Positions 34,724-41,748 of a stretch of DNA of 62,731 nt are shown piece after piece. A program made the translations under genes and the position numbers. The stretch's first letter is position 1; every line of letters begins with the position of its first letter. The notes under the pieces were generated by a model, which saw only the letters and a program-made list of their open reading frames with translations, was not told the DNA's origin and searched no databases. The stretch is from a virus: positions 1 to 62,731 of the IMG/VR virus record IMGVR_UViG_3300007513_000035; one strand, 5' to 3'.

Positions 34724-36334
34724 TCAATCAATCAACCAATCGAAATCTCCGCCTGGTGATTTCCATCTTTTTTGTCCATTCTTTTGGCTGCTTTCTCCTG
34801 ATTGATTTCTATTGATTGATTTTCCATCTTGAGATTTGTTCGCTGTTAATCCACCAGGAAAGTCATCATAAGTTTTTCTATCAACCCTCATTGACTTTAA
34901 CATGGCGTCTGTAAGAGCCCTCGAGTCTCTTGAAACACCGCTCGTAGTATCACAAATCCAAGATCCGATTGCCAGGCTCATGACCAGGTCGTCATTGTAC
35001 CCTCTCATAGCCTGTGCCTTGTTCCCCTTCCAGATAAAAGTTTTTATTTCATCATAAAATCTAGAAGAGTATGATAAAAGTTGCTTATTGCGAATCATCT
35101 CTTCGAGCTTTGTAAGAATCATACCCCTAGATTTTCCACTAGTTGTAAATCCTGCATTGTCTTGATTTTTTGTCGGAACATAGTCTCCCAAATAAGTCCC
35201 TCTTTTTGCGTAATAAAGTTTGGGATATGATAGATCTTTTAGTCTGAGTATGGTAGCATATCCATAGCTGTTGTTTTCGGGACATAAAAGAGCATTATTA
35301 TATTTTCTACCAACTTCGTTTAAAATTTCAGCAAATCTGTCAGGAGGAACTTTTCCCTTATATTCTGCTGATATTTCACCCGTTTGTTCATCTATTACAT
35401 GAAATGCTGAATAGTCTTTCGAATCTCCCCTTGAAATATCAGCTGAAATTACATACTCCTTTCCGGGGACTGGGTGTCCCCATACCCAAATATTTTTATC
35501 GAATCCCCACCTATCGGACGGAGGTCTTATCATATTAAAAAGCCACGACATATCATCGTCATTTATAAAATTTTCCCCAGAAGATGCGAAATCACACAAA
35601 AACTCTTGAGATATCTGCCTTTTAGAGAAGTTTTTTGTTTCTTTTTCAAACCACTCCTGATCTCTTTCTGGATGAACGTGCCATGGAAGCTTTATTCCCT
35701 TGAATTCGTTTAAACCTGCCTCAGCATCTGTATAAAGCTTATAGTACTGACCTCCAACTCCGTTGGGGGTTGACAATACAATTGCCCGTCCGCCTGTGGA
35801 GAGTGTAGGATACAGACCCATCCACAATTCATCAAAGTTTCTGACAAATGCAGCTTCATCAATTATTAGGAGAGACAGAGCTTCAGAGCGGCCAGCATCA
35901 TCTGATGTGGGTATTGCTTTTATTGATGATCCGTGACTAAATTCTATTAGCTGCTTATTATTGCTTGTAATTTCAGGAAGCATGAGCCACCCGGGTATGT
36001 TCCTCAGTATAGTTTTAACTTTTTTAATAAAGTTTTGTGCAACACTTAGCTTAGTGGCAATAATCAGTATGTTTTTATCTTTTTGAAAAAGAACCATCCA
36101 GGTCGCAAAAGCAGCAACAAGTGTGGACATTCCTAGCTGTCTAGATTTCAATATTATAGAAAACCTGTGATCTATAAATGTCTCAACACACTCATCTTGA
36201 AAAGAGAATGTGTCAAAAGGAATTAACCCTCTAACCGGATGCTGTATTTTACAGTAATTCTTAAAGAAATAATTTGGGTCTTTTCCACACTGAACTATCT
36301 CTTTTATTTGTCGACTTTTATTATAGGTCGCCAT
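34724..36334 (-). CDS. gp17: Terminase large subunit gp17
   Basis: A 536-residue DNA-packaging motor of the T4 gp17 type. Walker A is SRQLGMST (64-71), Walker B LLIIDE (155-160) and motif III STPNG (188-192). The C-terminal RNase H-like nuclease has VISADISRGD (about 295), CPENNSYG and YNDDLVMSLA. It cuts concatemers and pumps DNA through the portal using ATP. The end carries a polar Ser/Lys/Gln-rich tail. The ATG at 36334 overlaps the preceding stop (TAATG). The small terminase partner is not identifiable; the preceding 126-residue gene is only a positional candidate. The length is close to T4's 610, slightly shorter. Confidence 0.96.
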   Translation of the reverse strand: MATYNKSRQIKEIVQCGKDPNYFFKNYCKIQHPVRGLIPFDTFSFQDECVETFIDHRFSIILKSRQLGMSTLVAAFATWMVLFQKDKNILIIATKLSVAQNFIKKVKTILRNIPGWLMLPEITSNNKQLIEFSHGSSIKAIPTSDDAGRSEALSLLIIDEAAFVRNFDELWMGLYPTLSTGGRAIVLSTPNGVGGQYYKLYTDAEAGLNEFKGIKLPWHVHPERDQEWFEKETKNFSKRQISQEFLCDFASSGENFINDDDMSWLFNMIRPPSDRWGFDKNIWVWGHPVPGKEYVISADISRGDSKDYSAFHVIDEQTGEISAEYKGKVPPDRFAEILNEVGRKYNNALLCPENNSYGYATILRLKDLSYPKLYYAKRGTYLGDYVPTKNQDNAGFTTSGKSRGMILTKLEEMIRNKQLLSYSSRFYDEIKTFIWKGNKAQAMRGYNDDLVMSLAIGSWICDTTSGVSRDSRALTDAMLKSMRVDRKTYDDFPGGLTANKSQDGKSINRNQSGESSQKNGQKRWKSPGGDFDWLID

Positions 36335-37001: not shown

Positions 37002-40000
37002 TTATTTCGTATACACTCTTGAATCTTTTCCCTTTTTAGTAATATCAATTACATTGTCAACAACGTCTTTAACAGCATCGACATGTGATATAATTAAAAT
37101 ATTTTTAAAATGCTTCTTTAAAGATATTAAAAGTCTATTACAAGCTTCTACGTTTGTATCGTCTAGAGATCCAAACCCTTCATCTATAATTAGCATGTCA
37201 CATTTGGGCAAAGAAGATACGTTTATTAAAGCAACCCTGATAGCTAGTGAGGAAATCATTTTCTCCATTCCGGACGCAAGCTCTATGACCCTTTTAGAGT
37301 CTCCATAATTAATATAGATATCCATTGCGTTAGAGTTTAAATCTGCCTCTAGTTCAACTGTAAAACCAACTGTATTTTGCAAAATCTTAGATATTTCCGA
37401 ATTAATAACAGGCAAGTAAGAGTTAATTATCTGAAGTGGGATTCCTTTTTTAGAAACTGCCTGACTAAGTAAATTGTAAGCATGCCACTCTTTCTTTATT
37501 TTATCATATGTCTTTTTTTCTTCTCTCACCTTAAGCAACTCACTCTTGTCTGTTCCTACTTTTTGAGCATGTGACATTCTTATAGAATCCAGCTCAGATA
37601 TTTTCTTATTCATCTCAGAAAGACTGATCTTCATTTTTTCAAGTGAAATATCACTAGTATCCCTCTTTTTATCTTCCATTTCTTTTAGAATCTTTCTACC
37701 CTCAGATAAATTCTCAGATAGTTGCTCCACTAAAGATTCTTTCTCTCTTTTCTGAGACGTTATTGTTACTAGGGCTATTTGAATTTCTGATTCTTTTTTT
37801 AGAATTTTTTCATATTTTTCAATATTTTCTTCTATTTTATCACCCAATATTTTAGAAAGAAGATTTTCAGTCAGTGTTAAATTTTTAAGATTTTCTTCTA
37901 CTTTTTTTCTCTGTTCTTGTATTTTTTTCTTATTTTCATGAGAATCTTTGATAAATTTACAAGTTGGAAAATTATCACCACACGGAACTTCTCGTAACTT
38001 TTTTAAAGATTTTTCTTGCTGGGATAGTAAAACATGCTCCCTTTGATAATCACTTTTTATTTTAATTACACTCTTTTCCAAATCTCTTTTTGACGCAAGC
38101 TTTTCTCTCATCTCTTCGATAGAAAACTGACTTTTTAATTCTCTAATTTTAGAAATCTTTTCCCTATTAGACTCAACCCGAATCATCAGGCTAGAAAGTA
38201 AATTTAATTCTTTTTCTAGGTTTTCTTTAAGATTTTTAATATTTTCTTTCTGTATATCTACGTCTACTTGAGTAATGTCTCCAGAATTTTCATGTGACGC
38301 TATTTCTAACTGAATTTTTGATGCTTTCGATCTAGTTTTTTCTAAATTTTGCTCAAGCCTTCTAATCTTTGCCTGTATATTTTTTATTGATCTAGAGAGG
38401 TTGTAAGAAAGCACTCCCCAATCTCTATCTGGAATATTTTTCATTTGGGCTCTTGATATTATCAAGTCTTCTTTGACATGAGACTCCATTTGATCAAAAA
38501 CATTTAAATCCAAAAACTTAGAAAGAATTAGTTTTCGCTGTGTCGCTCTTTCTTTAATAAAATTGTTCATTTGCCCTTGAGAGGAGAGGGACGTTAATAG
38601 GAAATCTTCAGAAGTTCCAATTCTCTTTCTTGTGACTTTTTCTGTCTCTCTTCTTTGCTCTTCAGTCAGATCTCTTACAATTTCTCCATCACTGTCAATT
38701 TCATATAAATTTAATTGAGTTACAGCACTAACCTCTCCCCTTCTATTTTCGTGCTTGACCGACTGCCTTTCTATTCGAAGATTCTTCCCGCTTACACACA
38801 AGTCTATCGCTGTTTTACAGTGACCTTTTCTGCTATTGATTATATGCAAGTTTTTTATCGGACCCCGATCTGTAGTATTAAAAAGTGCATACATTAGGGT
38901 CCCAACTATCGAAGATTTTCCAGACCTGTTTTTTCCAAATATTCCGGTTATACCCTTAAAAGAATTAAAGTCTATTCTATTATTCTTTCCATAGGTGAAC
39001 ATATTATCAAAAGCAATGTTTTTAATTGACCACTTTACATTTCTTAGAGACTCTTCGGTGTTTGATATTCTTGAGAAATATTTCTTAATTAAAATTTCTA
39101 ACTCATCCCACGACTGACTAGAAAGGTCAGAATTTTTATAAAATTCTTTAACTAAGGAAACGTGTGTATTCACATCTCTTAGGTCTTCTTTAAATATCTT
39201 GCTGTCTCCAACATTGATCTCAGAAAGATCAACAGACTGATCTATCTTATAGACAACTTCATGCGCCCTCATAGTCTCTTTGAGCTCTGTGTGAAGATGA
39301 ATTATATCTGACTGAGGTATAGAATAATCTGATCTTACTCGGTATCTTGCCCCCGGTAAGATATCTTCTACTTGCTCCAGCGTTTCCCTAGCAGACCCGA
39401 ACCAGTCAATTGTCACAAACGGGTGGTCGTGAGGAACTTCATAAAAAGTTACATCAAAATCGTCTTTTCCTCTAATGTCCCAAAATAAAAACCCCTTTCC
39501 GGGATCTTCCCCGTAGTTCTGCTGGATGGTAGAGCCACAATATGCTATTTTTCTATCTTCTGTCAAAAACTGGCAGGTGTGAATATCTCCAAGGAGAGCA
39601 TAATCATATTCTCTAAAAAACTCAGCCTCGACTTCTCCTTCAATCGACCAGTCAGAGTCAGTAGTCGAACCTCTTACACCGCCATGAAATAAGGCAATAT
39701 TAATATCTTCCTCTACAGGCTTGATATTTTTCCATCCCGCTTCATCAAAGCAAGAGAAAACACACCAATTAAACCCGGGAATTCCAGTCGGGTAGATACC
39801 AGAATCTTTATATAAGAACAGGCGGGGATTATCTAGCGCAGAAATGATAGGGGATATTGCATCCTGCCTATCTTTGTTCATAATCAGCCCGTCATGATTT
39901 CCCAATATTATGTGAGTAGGGGCAATGCTGGCAAGATTTTTAAACCATTCCTGAAGACTGTCGACTAGTTCAGGAGATATTCCCTGTGTTTTAGAATGAA

Positions 40001-40136
40001 CAATATCCCCTCCAACATAAATAACATCGGGAGATAAATCCCTAGACATTTCAAAAAATCTTTCAAAAGACCTTTTATACTCTTCGTGTCTACTTAGGCC
40101 CCTCCAGTGAATATCAGCAATATGAACTATTTTCAT
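37002..40136 (-). CDS. Mre11-Rad50 fusion nuclease-ATPase (SbcD-SbcC, gp47-gp46)
   Basis: This 1044-residue single chain contains both subunits of the recombination nuclease that T4 and bacteria encode separately. Residues 1 to about 330 are the Mre11/SbcD phosphoesterase: ADIH (Asp8, His10), GGD (Asp44), GNHD (Asn80, His81), HGG (His151) and GDIH (Asp184, His186). Residues about 370-1044 are the Rad50/SbcC part: Walker A GKNRSGKS (401-408), Q-loop SLSSQGQMNNF (about 516-526), two long coiled-coil arms, a hook-like CGDNFPTC (719-726), signature ELASGMEKMISS, and Walker B MLIIDE (981-986). No stop, start or frameshift separates the halves. It processes DNA ends for recombination-dependent replication. 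The hook is Cys-X6-Cys rather than CPxC, so zinc hooking may be altered. Confidence 0.95.
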   Translation of the reverse strand: MKIVHIADIHWRGLSRHEEYKRSFERFFEMSRDLSPDVIYVGGDIVHSKTQGISPELVDSLQEWFKNLASIAPTHIILGNHDGLIMNKDRQDAISPIISALDNPRLFLYKDSGIYPTGIPGFNWCVFSCFDEAGWKNIKPVEEDINIALFHGGVRGSTTDSDWSIEGEVEAEFFREYDYALLGDIHTCQFLTEDRKIAYCGSTIQQNYGEDPGKGFLFWDIRGKDDFDVTFYEVPHDHPFVTIDWFGSARETLEQVEDILPGARYRVRSDYSIPQSDIIHLHTELKETMRAHEVVYKIDQSVDLSEINVGDSKIFKEDLRDVNTHVSLVKEFYKNSDLSSQSWDELEILIKKYFSRISNTEESLRNVKWSIKNIAFDNMFTYGKNNRIDFNSFKGITGIFGKNRSGKSSIVGTLMYALFNTTDRGPIKNLHIINSRKGHCKTAIDLCVSGKNLRIERQSVKHENRRGEVSAVTQLNLYEIDSDGEIVRDLTEEQRRETEKVTRKRIGTSEDFLLTSLSSQGQMNNFIKERATQRKLILSKFLDLNVFDQMESHVKEDLIISRAQMKNIPDRDWGVLSYNLSRSIKNIQAKIRRLEQNLEKTRSKASKIQLEIASHENSGDITQVDVDIQKENIKNLKENLEKELNLLSSLMIRVESNREKISKIRELKSQFSIEEMREKLASKRDLEKSVIKIKSDYQREHVLLSQQEKSLKKLREVPCGDNFPTCKFIKDSHENKKKIQEQRKKVEENLKNLTLTENLLSKILGDKIEENIEKYEKILKKESEIQIALVTITSQKREKESLVEQLSENLSEGRKILKEMEDKKRDTSDISLEKMKISLSEMNKKISELDSIRMSHAQKVGTDKSELLKVREEKKTYDKIKKEWHAYNLLSQAVSKKGIPLQIINSYLPVINSEISKILQNTVGFTVELEADLNSNAMDIYINYGDSKRVIELASGMEKMISSLAIRVALINVSSLPKCDMLIIDEGFGSLDDTNVEACNRLLISLKKHFKNILIISHVDAVKDVVDNVIDITKKGKDSRVYTK

Positions 40137-40188: not shown

Positions 40189-41157
40189 CTAAACCAGTGA
40201 GCCGCTTTCTATTGATCTTATTTTATCTAAAATAAAACTATTTCTAGACCAAATGCTGGCCTCACTACTCTTTTTAATAAAGTCTTCTTTTGTCATTTCA
40301 CCGACGTCTGAATATTCTCCTAGTTCTAAAATTCTAACACGACAGCTGTATTCCGAAAGAAGTTTAGCAATGGCGTGAGACTTTTTATTCATATCACTAT
40401 CAAGACATAAGAGAACGGGAGTTTTATGATGAGCTACCTTAGAAAATAAAATACTTTCCTCTGACAACCTAGACCCGAGGAGACAAGTAGAATTATATCC
40501 CGATTTTAATAAATCGAACGGTCCTTCTACTATGGCAAGCTCTTTTTTCCAATCAATGTTTATTTCATTAAAAACTATGCGCTGCTTATTAACTGGACAG
40601 TTGATATACTTCACTCTAGACCCGCTATCAATCCCGCGTGCTACAAAAAAATTAATATCACCAAGTGAATCAAAAGAAGGAAAAATAACTCTTCTTCTAA
40701 ATCTTTTTAGCTGGGATGTTCCAATTTTATAATACCACATGTCTCTCTCAGTCACACCTCTATTTTTTAAATAAAGTAGACATGCCCTCATGTCAGGATC
40801 TCTCGGGTTGATATCGTCTATTATTAATCTAAAATCTTCTGGAAGTCTAGCTTCCGCTTCCTCGATACTTTCTTTTAGTGTTTTTCGATATAAATCTACA
40901 GCAAATTTTTGACAATACTCTTCTACAAAGTGAGACATGTCAAACTTTCTTAATATGGGAACAAGTGTCTTTCCCCTTAGATCACAAACCCAGCAATGAC
41001 ACTGGCCTGTCTCAACATTTATAGAAAATTTCTTTTTACTCTTACTGTTGCATGCTGGACATGAGACGGCTACATTAATACCATCCCTTGCCCTAGATAT
41101 TTCTCCAAAAACTTTTTTAATAAAAGTCACTCTTTCATGAGTAGAGGTGACAGGCAT
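40189..41157 (-). CDS. DnaG-like primase with TOPRIM domain
   Basis: A 322-residue primase. The N-terminal zinc site has CPAC (33-36) and CHCWVC (53-58). The TOPRIM core includes AIVEGPFDLLKSG with Glu211, LCLDSD with Asp253 and Asp255, and SDVGEM with Asp284. It makes RNA primers for the lagging strand, probably loaded by a helicase not present in this window. It is short, lacking the C-terminal helicase-binding domain of bacterial DnaG, much like T4 gp61. It sits between the resolvase and the Mre11-Rad50 fusion in a small DNA-metabolism island. The ATG at 41157 is used. Confidence 0.9.
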   Translation of the reverse strand: MPVTSTHERVTFIKKVFGEISRARDGINVAVSCPACNSKSKKKFSINVETGQCHCWVCDLRGKTLVPILRKFDMSHFVEEYCQKFAVDLYRKTLKESIEEAEARLPEDFRLIIDDINPRDPDMRACLLYLKNRGVTERDMWYYKIGTSQLKRFRRRVIFPSFDSLGDINFFVARGIDSGSRVKYINCPVNKQRIVFNEINIDWKKELAIVEGPFDLLKSGYNSTCLLGSRLSEESILFSKVAHHKTPVLLCLDSDMNKKSHAIAKLLSEYSCRVRILELGEYSDVGEMTKEDFIKKSSEASIWSRNSFILDKIRSIESGSLV

Positions 41158-41193: not shown

Positions 41194-41748
41194 TTAAGAT
41201 CCCGCAACATAAGAGGCAGTGGCAATAACAAGTGCATCTGAAATATCGTAACATCCTGGATGATTTATGGTTTGTCCTTTTCTTGGTCCACTTTTTAGAA
41301 TTTTTTCTGGCCACCTGTAGTCTGAATCTCTAATTTCTTCCTTTGCCCATTCAAAAACTTGTTCCTTTATAGGGGGACCTCCCTTAGATTTTCTAATAAC
41401 CTTAATTCCCGCATTCTTTCTCGCAGAATTAACATTTATAAATTCTGGAAATATTCCGGTCTTTTTAAAAACGATATATGATAAAATTCCATTAAACCTA
41501 GAAAGAGAGGAAAGAGTGTGTGCTGAAGAAAATCCTGACCGAAATGATTGCAAGTTTTGCTCAATTCCAATTTTAGTAATCTTATTTTGAAGCACTAGCT
41601 TTTCTATAGCTTTCTCAGCCTCTGATGCCTTTCTGAATATACATTTGTATGAAGCTAATGGTATGTATCCTGCACTGTTAAAGGTGCCATCTGGGTTCAA
41701 CAGACACCACCCAGTGCAGCTCGTAGATATGTCCAAGCCTAGTATCAA
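41194..41748 (-). CDS. RuvC-like Holliday junction resolvase
   Basis: A 184-residue RNase H-fold nuclease with Asp6 in ILGLDISTSCTGWCL, Glu63 in KIGIEQNLQSF, and Asp168/Asp171 in GCYDISDALVIA: the four acidic residues of the RuvC family. It would cut branched DNA before packaging, the job done in T4 by the unrelated gp49. The start codon is TTG at 41748, immediately after the upstream stop (TAATTG), which supports coupling to the LamG gene. No normal ribosome site is evident. A role in recombination with the Mre11-Rad50 fusion nearby is likely. Confidence 0.88.
   Translation of the reverse strand: MILGLDISTSCTGWCLLNPDGTFNSAGYIPLASYKCIFRKASEAEKAIEKLVLQNKITKIGIEQNLQSFRSGFSSAHTLSSLSRFNGILSYIVFKKTGIFPEFINVNSARKNAGIKVIRKSKGGPPIKEQVFEWAKEEIRDSDYRWPEKILKSGPRKGQTINHPGCYDISDALVIATASYVAGS

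Follow-up and report, generated by a model that had tools for sequence, protein, structure and literature searches.

Genetic organization of the locus

The window, that is the whole stretch of 62,731 nucleotides of viral DNA analysed here (IMG/VR record IMGVR_UViG_3300007513_000035), carries on its minus strand an open reading frame at positions 37002..40136 that comprises 1044 codons from an ATG start to the stop codon without an internal stop. Frame, Pfam and PHROG matches and sequence motifs identify it as a gene for a single-chain fusion of Mre11 and Rad50 (SbcD and SbcC). The original prediction, which gave no strand, had placed both halves in one frame, and this is correct, as the frame is unbroken and both domains are matched by Pfam and PHROG. 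The N-terminal half is a calcineurin-like phosphoesterase (Pfam Metallophos, residues 1-187, E 1.9e-13), and the Rad50-type ATPase N-lobe is matched by Pfam AAA_23 (residues 377-645, E 1.5e-9). The match to Pfam SbcC_Walker_B at residues 948-1003 stayed below its cut-off, and the SbcC-like phrog_77 covers residues 313-1041 (E 2.4e-52). The deduced protein contains the phosphoesterase motif residues D8/H10, D44, N80-H81, H151 and G-D184-I-H186 as well as the ATPase motifs Walker A (GKNRSGKSS), Q-loop (Q520), signature (ASGMEK) and Walker B (IIDEG) and the residue H1018; in an alignment of 52 homologues the key catalytic and ATPase residues are invariant.

The fusion gene is flanked by conserved neighbours, all located on the minus strand: a DnaG-like primase gene immediately upstream (40189..41157; Pfam, PHROG and locus comparison), a gene for a RuvC-like Holliday junction resolvase (41194..41748; PHROG and locus comparison) and, downstream, the gene encoding the terminase large subunit (34724..36334; Pfam, PHROG and locus comparison). 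The conserved order is RuvC-primase-fusion-terminase-portal. Among 103 compared loci, many of which are short, homologues of the primase were detected in 92, of the terminase in 82, of the portal protein in 79 and of the resolvase in 70, and these homologues always share the strand of the fusion gene. Accordingly, the fusion gene belongs to a recombination and replication block that adjoins the packaging genes; the portal, terminase and head proteins of this phage are of the T4 type. Further upstream, in the region 41749-62360, a PHROG search with nine large frames of the minus strand, one of them specifying 1724 amino acids, gave no match.

Domain structure of the fused protein

An AlphaFold2 model of the monomer, based on an alignment of 52 sequences, reached a mean pLDDT of 83.9 and a pTM of 0.51; the latter value makes the relative placement of the domains unreliable. 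The modelled order along the chain is nuclease, capping domain, helix-loop-helix, a linker of about nine residues, ATPase head and coiled coil. The Mre11/SbcD-like phosphoesterase domain (39423..40136, minus strand as all features below) spans residues 1-238 with an approximate boundary and is supported by Pfam, by the model and by PDB fold matches to SbcD and Mre11. It is followed by a predicted capping domain (residues 239-298, 39243..39422) with a strand-helix-helix-strand arrangement in the AlphaFold2 secondary structure and a match to the SbcD nuclease and cap structure 7dog. A modelled helix-loop-helix (residues 322-358, 39063..39173) occupies the position expected for the Rad50-binding element of Mre11, with a layout as in PMC3175470, and the linker comprises residues 359-367 (39036..39062) in the model and is collinear in the homologues.

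The Rad50 head is composed of an N-lobe (residues 368-544, 38505..39035), with Walker A at residues 401-409 and Q520 in the Q-loop, and a C-lobe (residues 895-1044 and the stop codon, 37002..37454) that contains the signature, Walker B (LIIDEG), the D-loop and the His switch; both lobes are assigned from Pfam, alignment and model. In between, the model predicts a coiled coil with a descending arm (residues 545-716, 37989..38504) and a returning arm (residues 730-894, 37455..37949), both long helical arms showing short breaks. The hook apex at residues 717-729 (37950..37988) was assigned from the alignment and contains C719-x6-C726 (PCGDNFPTCKF), which probably binds zinc. A fold search of the PDB with the model placed structures of Rad50 and of Mre11/SbcD at the top, followed by other ATPases of the SMC type. 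Among viral proteins, the best fold matches came from Tupanvirus, Harvfovirus, Yasminevirus and Catovirus; they are long 'DNA repair' proteins with 1200-1370 aligned columns and represent full-length fusions of Mimivirus-like giant viruses.

Conservation of the fusion

A scan of IMG/VR with the window protein detected related sequence in 171 stretches; the 80 best ones were retained, and two further scans with distant relatives added 30 loci, giving a combined set of 110. Both halves are present in one frame at 109 of these 110 viral loci, some of which are cut by a contig end, so that the question raised by the original prediction, whether homologues are split or fused, is answered in favour of fusion. 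Fifteen of the loci did not fit the motif pattern used for sorting, but each of them contains one frame of more than 1000 amino acids with both halves (for instance L112 with 1243 amino acids). In L111, the sole exception, the break lies near residues 191-197, that is within the nuclease domain and away from the joint.

The possibility that a sequencing or assembly error deleted a stop and a start codon and thereby merged two separate genes had been placed by the original prediction at residues 330-370, and none of the 110 loci is split near there. All 52 aligned rows are collinear across the joint (residues 300-372), without a stop and with gap runs of at most two residues, and the joint is partly conserved, R320 and W369 being nearly invariant. 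The fused loci come from many independent metagenomes, and fusion is likewise found in an annotated protein of 1066 amino acids in the record of phage Mel-JY01 and at two loci from bacterial genome bins. A comparable error may exist elsewhere, as in Listeria phage LMTA-57 an unusual basic joint immediately precedes MFTFKKVKIKNF, which resembles a native SbcC start. For the window, the collinear joint rules out chance or a chimera, and the fusion shared by the homologues together with this joint excludes such an error, the probability of which we regard as practically nil.

An internal translation start would yield an additional, separate Rad50-like subunit and a ratio of the two halves other than 1:1. 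A GTG at codon 322 lies close to the joint, but it lacks a convincing upstream ribosome-binding site, residue 322 is not conserved among the homologues and the next start, ATG 379, falls inside the first strand region of the ATPase, so that this reading appears very improbable. No second copy of either half was found within this record, which is itself a fragment, and separate SbcC and SbcD genes may be located elsewhere in the genome.

Motif V of the nuclease and the hook of the coiled coil

The original prediction had credited the fusion with all phosphoesterase motifs. The motifs are present, but motif V (residues 183-186, 39579..39590), as defined by the alignment, reads GDIH in the window protein as compared with GHIH in E. 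coli SbcD and GHFH in T4 gp47, and is thus not canonical, Asp184 replacing the first, metal-ligating His of GHxH. Since motif V has Asp at the place of a metal-binding His, the activity or the metal preference of the fusion may differ from that of SbcD. D184 occupies this position in all 52 aligned homologues, which could be taken to mean that the nuclease half is altered or dead and that the protein mainly serves as a DNA-tethering ATPase. On the other hand, Asp is able to bind metal, the remaining metal-site residues D8, H10, D44, N80, H151 and H186 together with H81 are invariant in the 52 homologues, which indicates selection for catalysis, and the same change is found in Mimivirus R555, whose Asp242 corresponds to Pyrococcus His206 (PMC3175470). 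We therefore consider it improbable that the protein, with an altered or inactive nuclease half, serves mainly as a tether.

With respect to the hook, C719 and C726 are both present, by alignment column, in 50 of the 52 homologues and C726 in all 52, with a slightly different spacing in a few rows. The hook is mostly C-x6-C in the lineage of the window, whereas T4, E. coli, Mel-JY01 and pT24 have CxxC. The titles and abstracts of the literature searched contained no description of a C-x6-C hook, although one may have been published elsewhere. A rather unlikely, more far-reaching proposal is that the fused viral clade, with GDxH and, in this lineage, the C-x6-C hook, represents a biochemically distinct nuclease with another metal or cleavage preference or with ATP gating in cis, and hence more than a covalent SbcCD.

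Comparison with known Mre11-Rad50 systems

Fusions of this type were described in 2011 by Yoshida, Claverie and Ogata (PMC3175470), who reported Mimivirus R555 as an Mre11-Rad50 fusion along with twelve further ones from bacteria, plasmids, eukaryotes and Bacillus phage 0305phi8-36. In the same work, it was argued that the Mre11 C-terminus lies near enough to the Rad50 N-terminus for a linker of 9-12 residues, and R555-like homologues were found to be abundant in aquatic metagenomes, some marine ones being inferred to be phage-derived and sharing their scaffolds with primase genes. The novelty implied by the original prediction consequently does not hold, as many fused homologues exist and the class has been on record since 2011. 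The window protein is a well-conserved further example of this class, the fusion itself is unsurprising, and such fusions are common in aquatic phages.

The window protein shares with the R555 class an N-terminal Mre11-like phosphoesterase and a C-terminal Rad50-like ATPase on one polypeptide, the retained cap and helix-loop-helix with a short linker ahead of the Rad50 part, as far as the model indicates, the Asp in motif V, and an aquatic viral distribution that partly concerns inferred phages with primase-like genes on the same scaffolds. It differs from R555 in its length (1044 versus 1351 amino acids), in its phage rather than giant-virus genome and in the C-x6-C hook of its lineage. The likeness is drawn from the published description and from fold matches to related giant-virus proteins, not from the R555 sequence itself.

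The separate subunits named by the original prediction (gp47 and gp46, SbcD and SbcC) were confirmed for T4 and E. coli, since both systems have separate genes. T4 gp47/gp46 combines the same two activities as the fusion, and the window encodes a T4-like portal protein and terminase, but the T4 genes are separated by two small genes. SbcD and SbcC of E. coli have domains homologous to those of the fusion, according to PDB sequence and fold matches, and are encoded by two overlapping genes. Separate subunits, a GHxH motif V and a CxxC hook are thus traits of the canonical SbcCD and gp46-gp47 systems that are absent from the window protein.

Proposed function of the fusion

Domain content and order, conserved active-site residues, conservation of the fusion and the gene neighbourhood are established here, and we assign a probability of about 0.9 to the reading that the gene encodes a phage-borne Mre11-Rad50 (SbcDC) in a single chain, which belongs with the R555-like fusions and acts as a DNA-end machine like SbcCD or gp47-gp46. 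By homology with these complexes, two chains would most likely form a dimer joined by the nuclease domains, by the heads in their ATP-bound state and by the hook of the coiled coil, which would result in the same machine of two nucleases and two ATPases. Head engagement driven by ATP would gate the access of DNA ends to the nuclease, which may trim or nick phage DNA ends and generate 3' ends, so that recombination-dependent replication and break repair could begin. In these processes, the fusion may work in one module with the primase and the RuvC-like resolvase.

The canonical complex consists of two Mre11 and two Rad50 subunits, a ratio of 1:1. The forced 1:1 ratio that the original prediction named is trivially enforced by the fusion, but it is no new constraint, since the canonical complex already has it. 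What the fusion guarantees is the co-production of both halves. The nuclease may contact either the ATPase of its own chain (in cis) or that of the dimer partner (in trans). The class has been represented chiefly by Mimivirus and by short metagenome reads, and to these the window protein adds a clean phage member in full length. The alignment supplies GDxH and the C-x6-C hook as testable family-specific features, and the one-gene, one-chain form would ease expression and mutation of the Mre11-Rad50 machine.

Phylogeny and related fusions

Of the 25 rows in a tree, the 20 viral or viral-like ones with GDxH cluster in one group (support 100/99) with three sub-lineages, represented by the window protein, Mel-JY01 and L084. 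Outside this group, on very long branches, are the five outgroup rows, which comprise T4, E. coli, Yersinia phage YerA41, LMTA-57 and a bacterial pair that is split. The grouping suggests a single origin of the fusion, which the long outgroup branches leave short of proof. Giant-virus sequences were left out of the tree and were compared with the window protein through fold matches alone. Motif V of L091 reads GHVH.

Among cultured phages, fusions occur in Microcystis phage Mel-JY01 and Tenacibaculum phage pT24, and Listeria phage LMTA-57 carries one as well. The Mel-JY01 protein (WWT39521.1, 'AAA domain containing protein') is a one-chain fusion with GDIH and, as in the window, a primase-like gene upstream; it is about 29-33% identical to the window protein, has a CxxC hook and differs in its remaining neighbours. 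The fusion of pT24 comprises 1310 amino acids and contains GDIH. LMTA-57 (L085:2917-5946) encodes a canonical-type fusion of 1009 amino acids with GHYH and a CPTC hook; its joint looks as if the end of SbcD had been run together with the native start of SbcC and is possibly due to a frameshift or sequencing error. In YerA41 (L124:2905-5942), the nuclease and part of the ATPase form a frame of 827 amino acids, and the next gene specifies a 'DNA repair ATPase' of 185 amino acids. The matches from bacterial bins, L086 and L087, have the same phage neighbours as the window fusion and are most simply explained as contigs of phages or prophages.

In an uncultured 484-kb phage (LR756508.1, L083:2944-7166), about 1 kb interrupts the fused gene right after GDIH and holds a frame of 305 amino acids, whose Cys pairs resemble those of a zinc ribbon and which may encode a homing endonuclease. 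No intron family of Rfam scored above threshold in the interrupted gene. At the same site, after GDIHKMQYM, a short extra stretch breaks the gene of the window-lineage relative L111 (L111:2983-6223), leaving a frame of 860 amino acids and a 5' fragment whose acidic tail is a little like that of L083. Since both genes are broken there, the site after GDIH may be a recurrent point of insertion or splitting.
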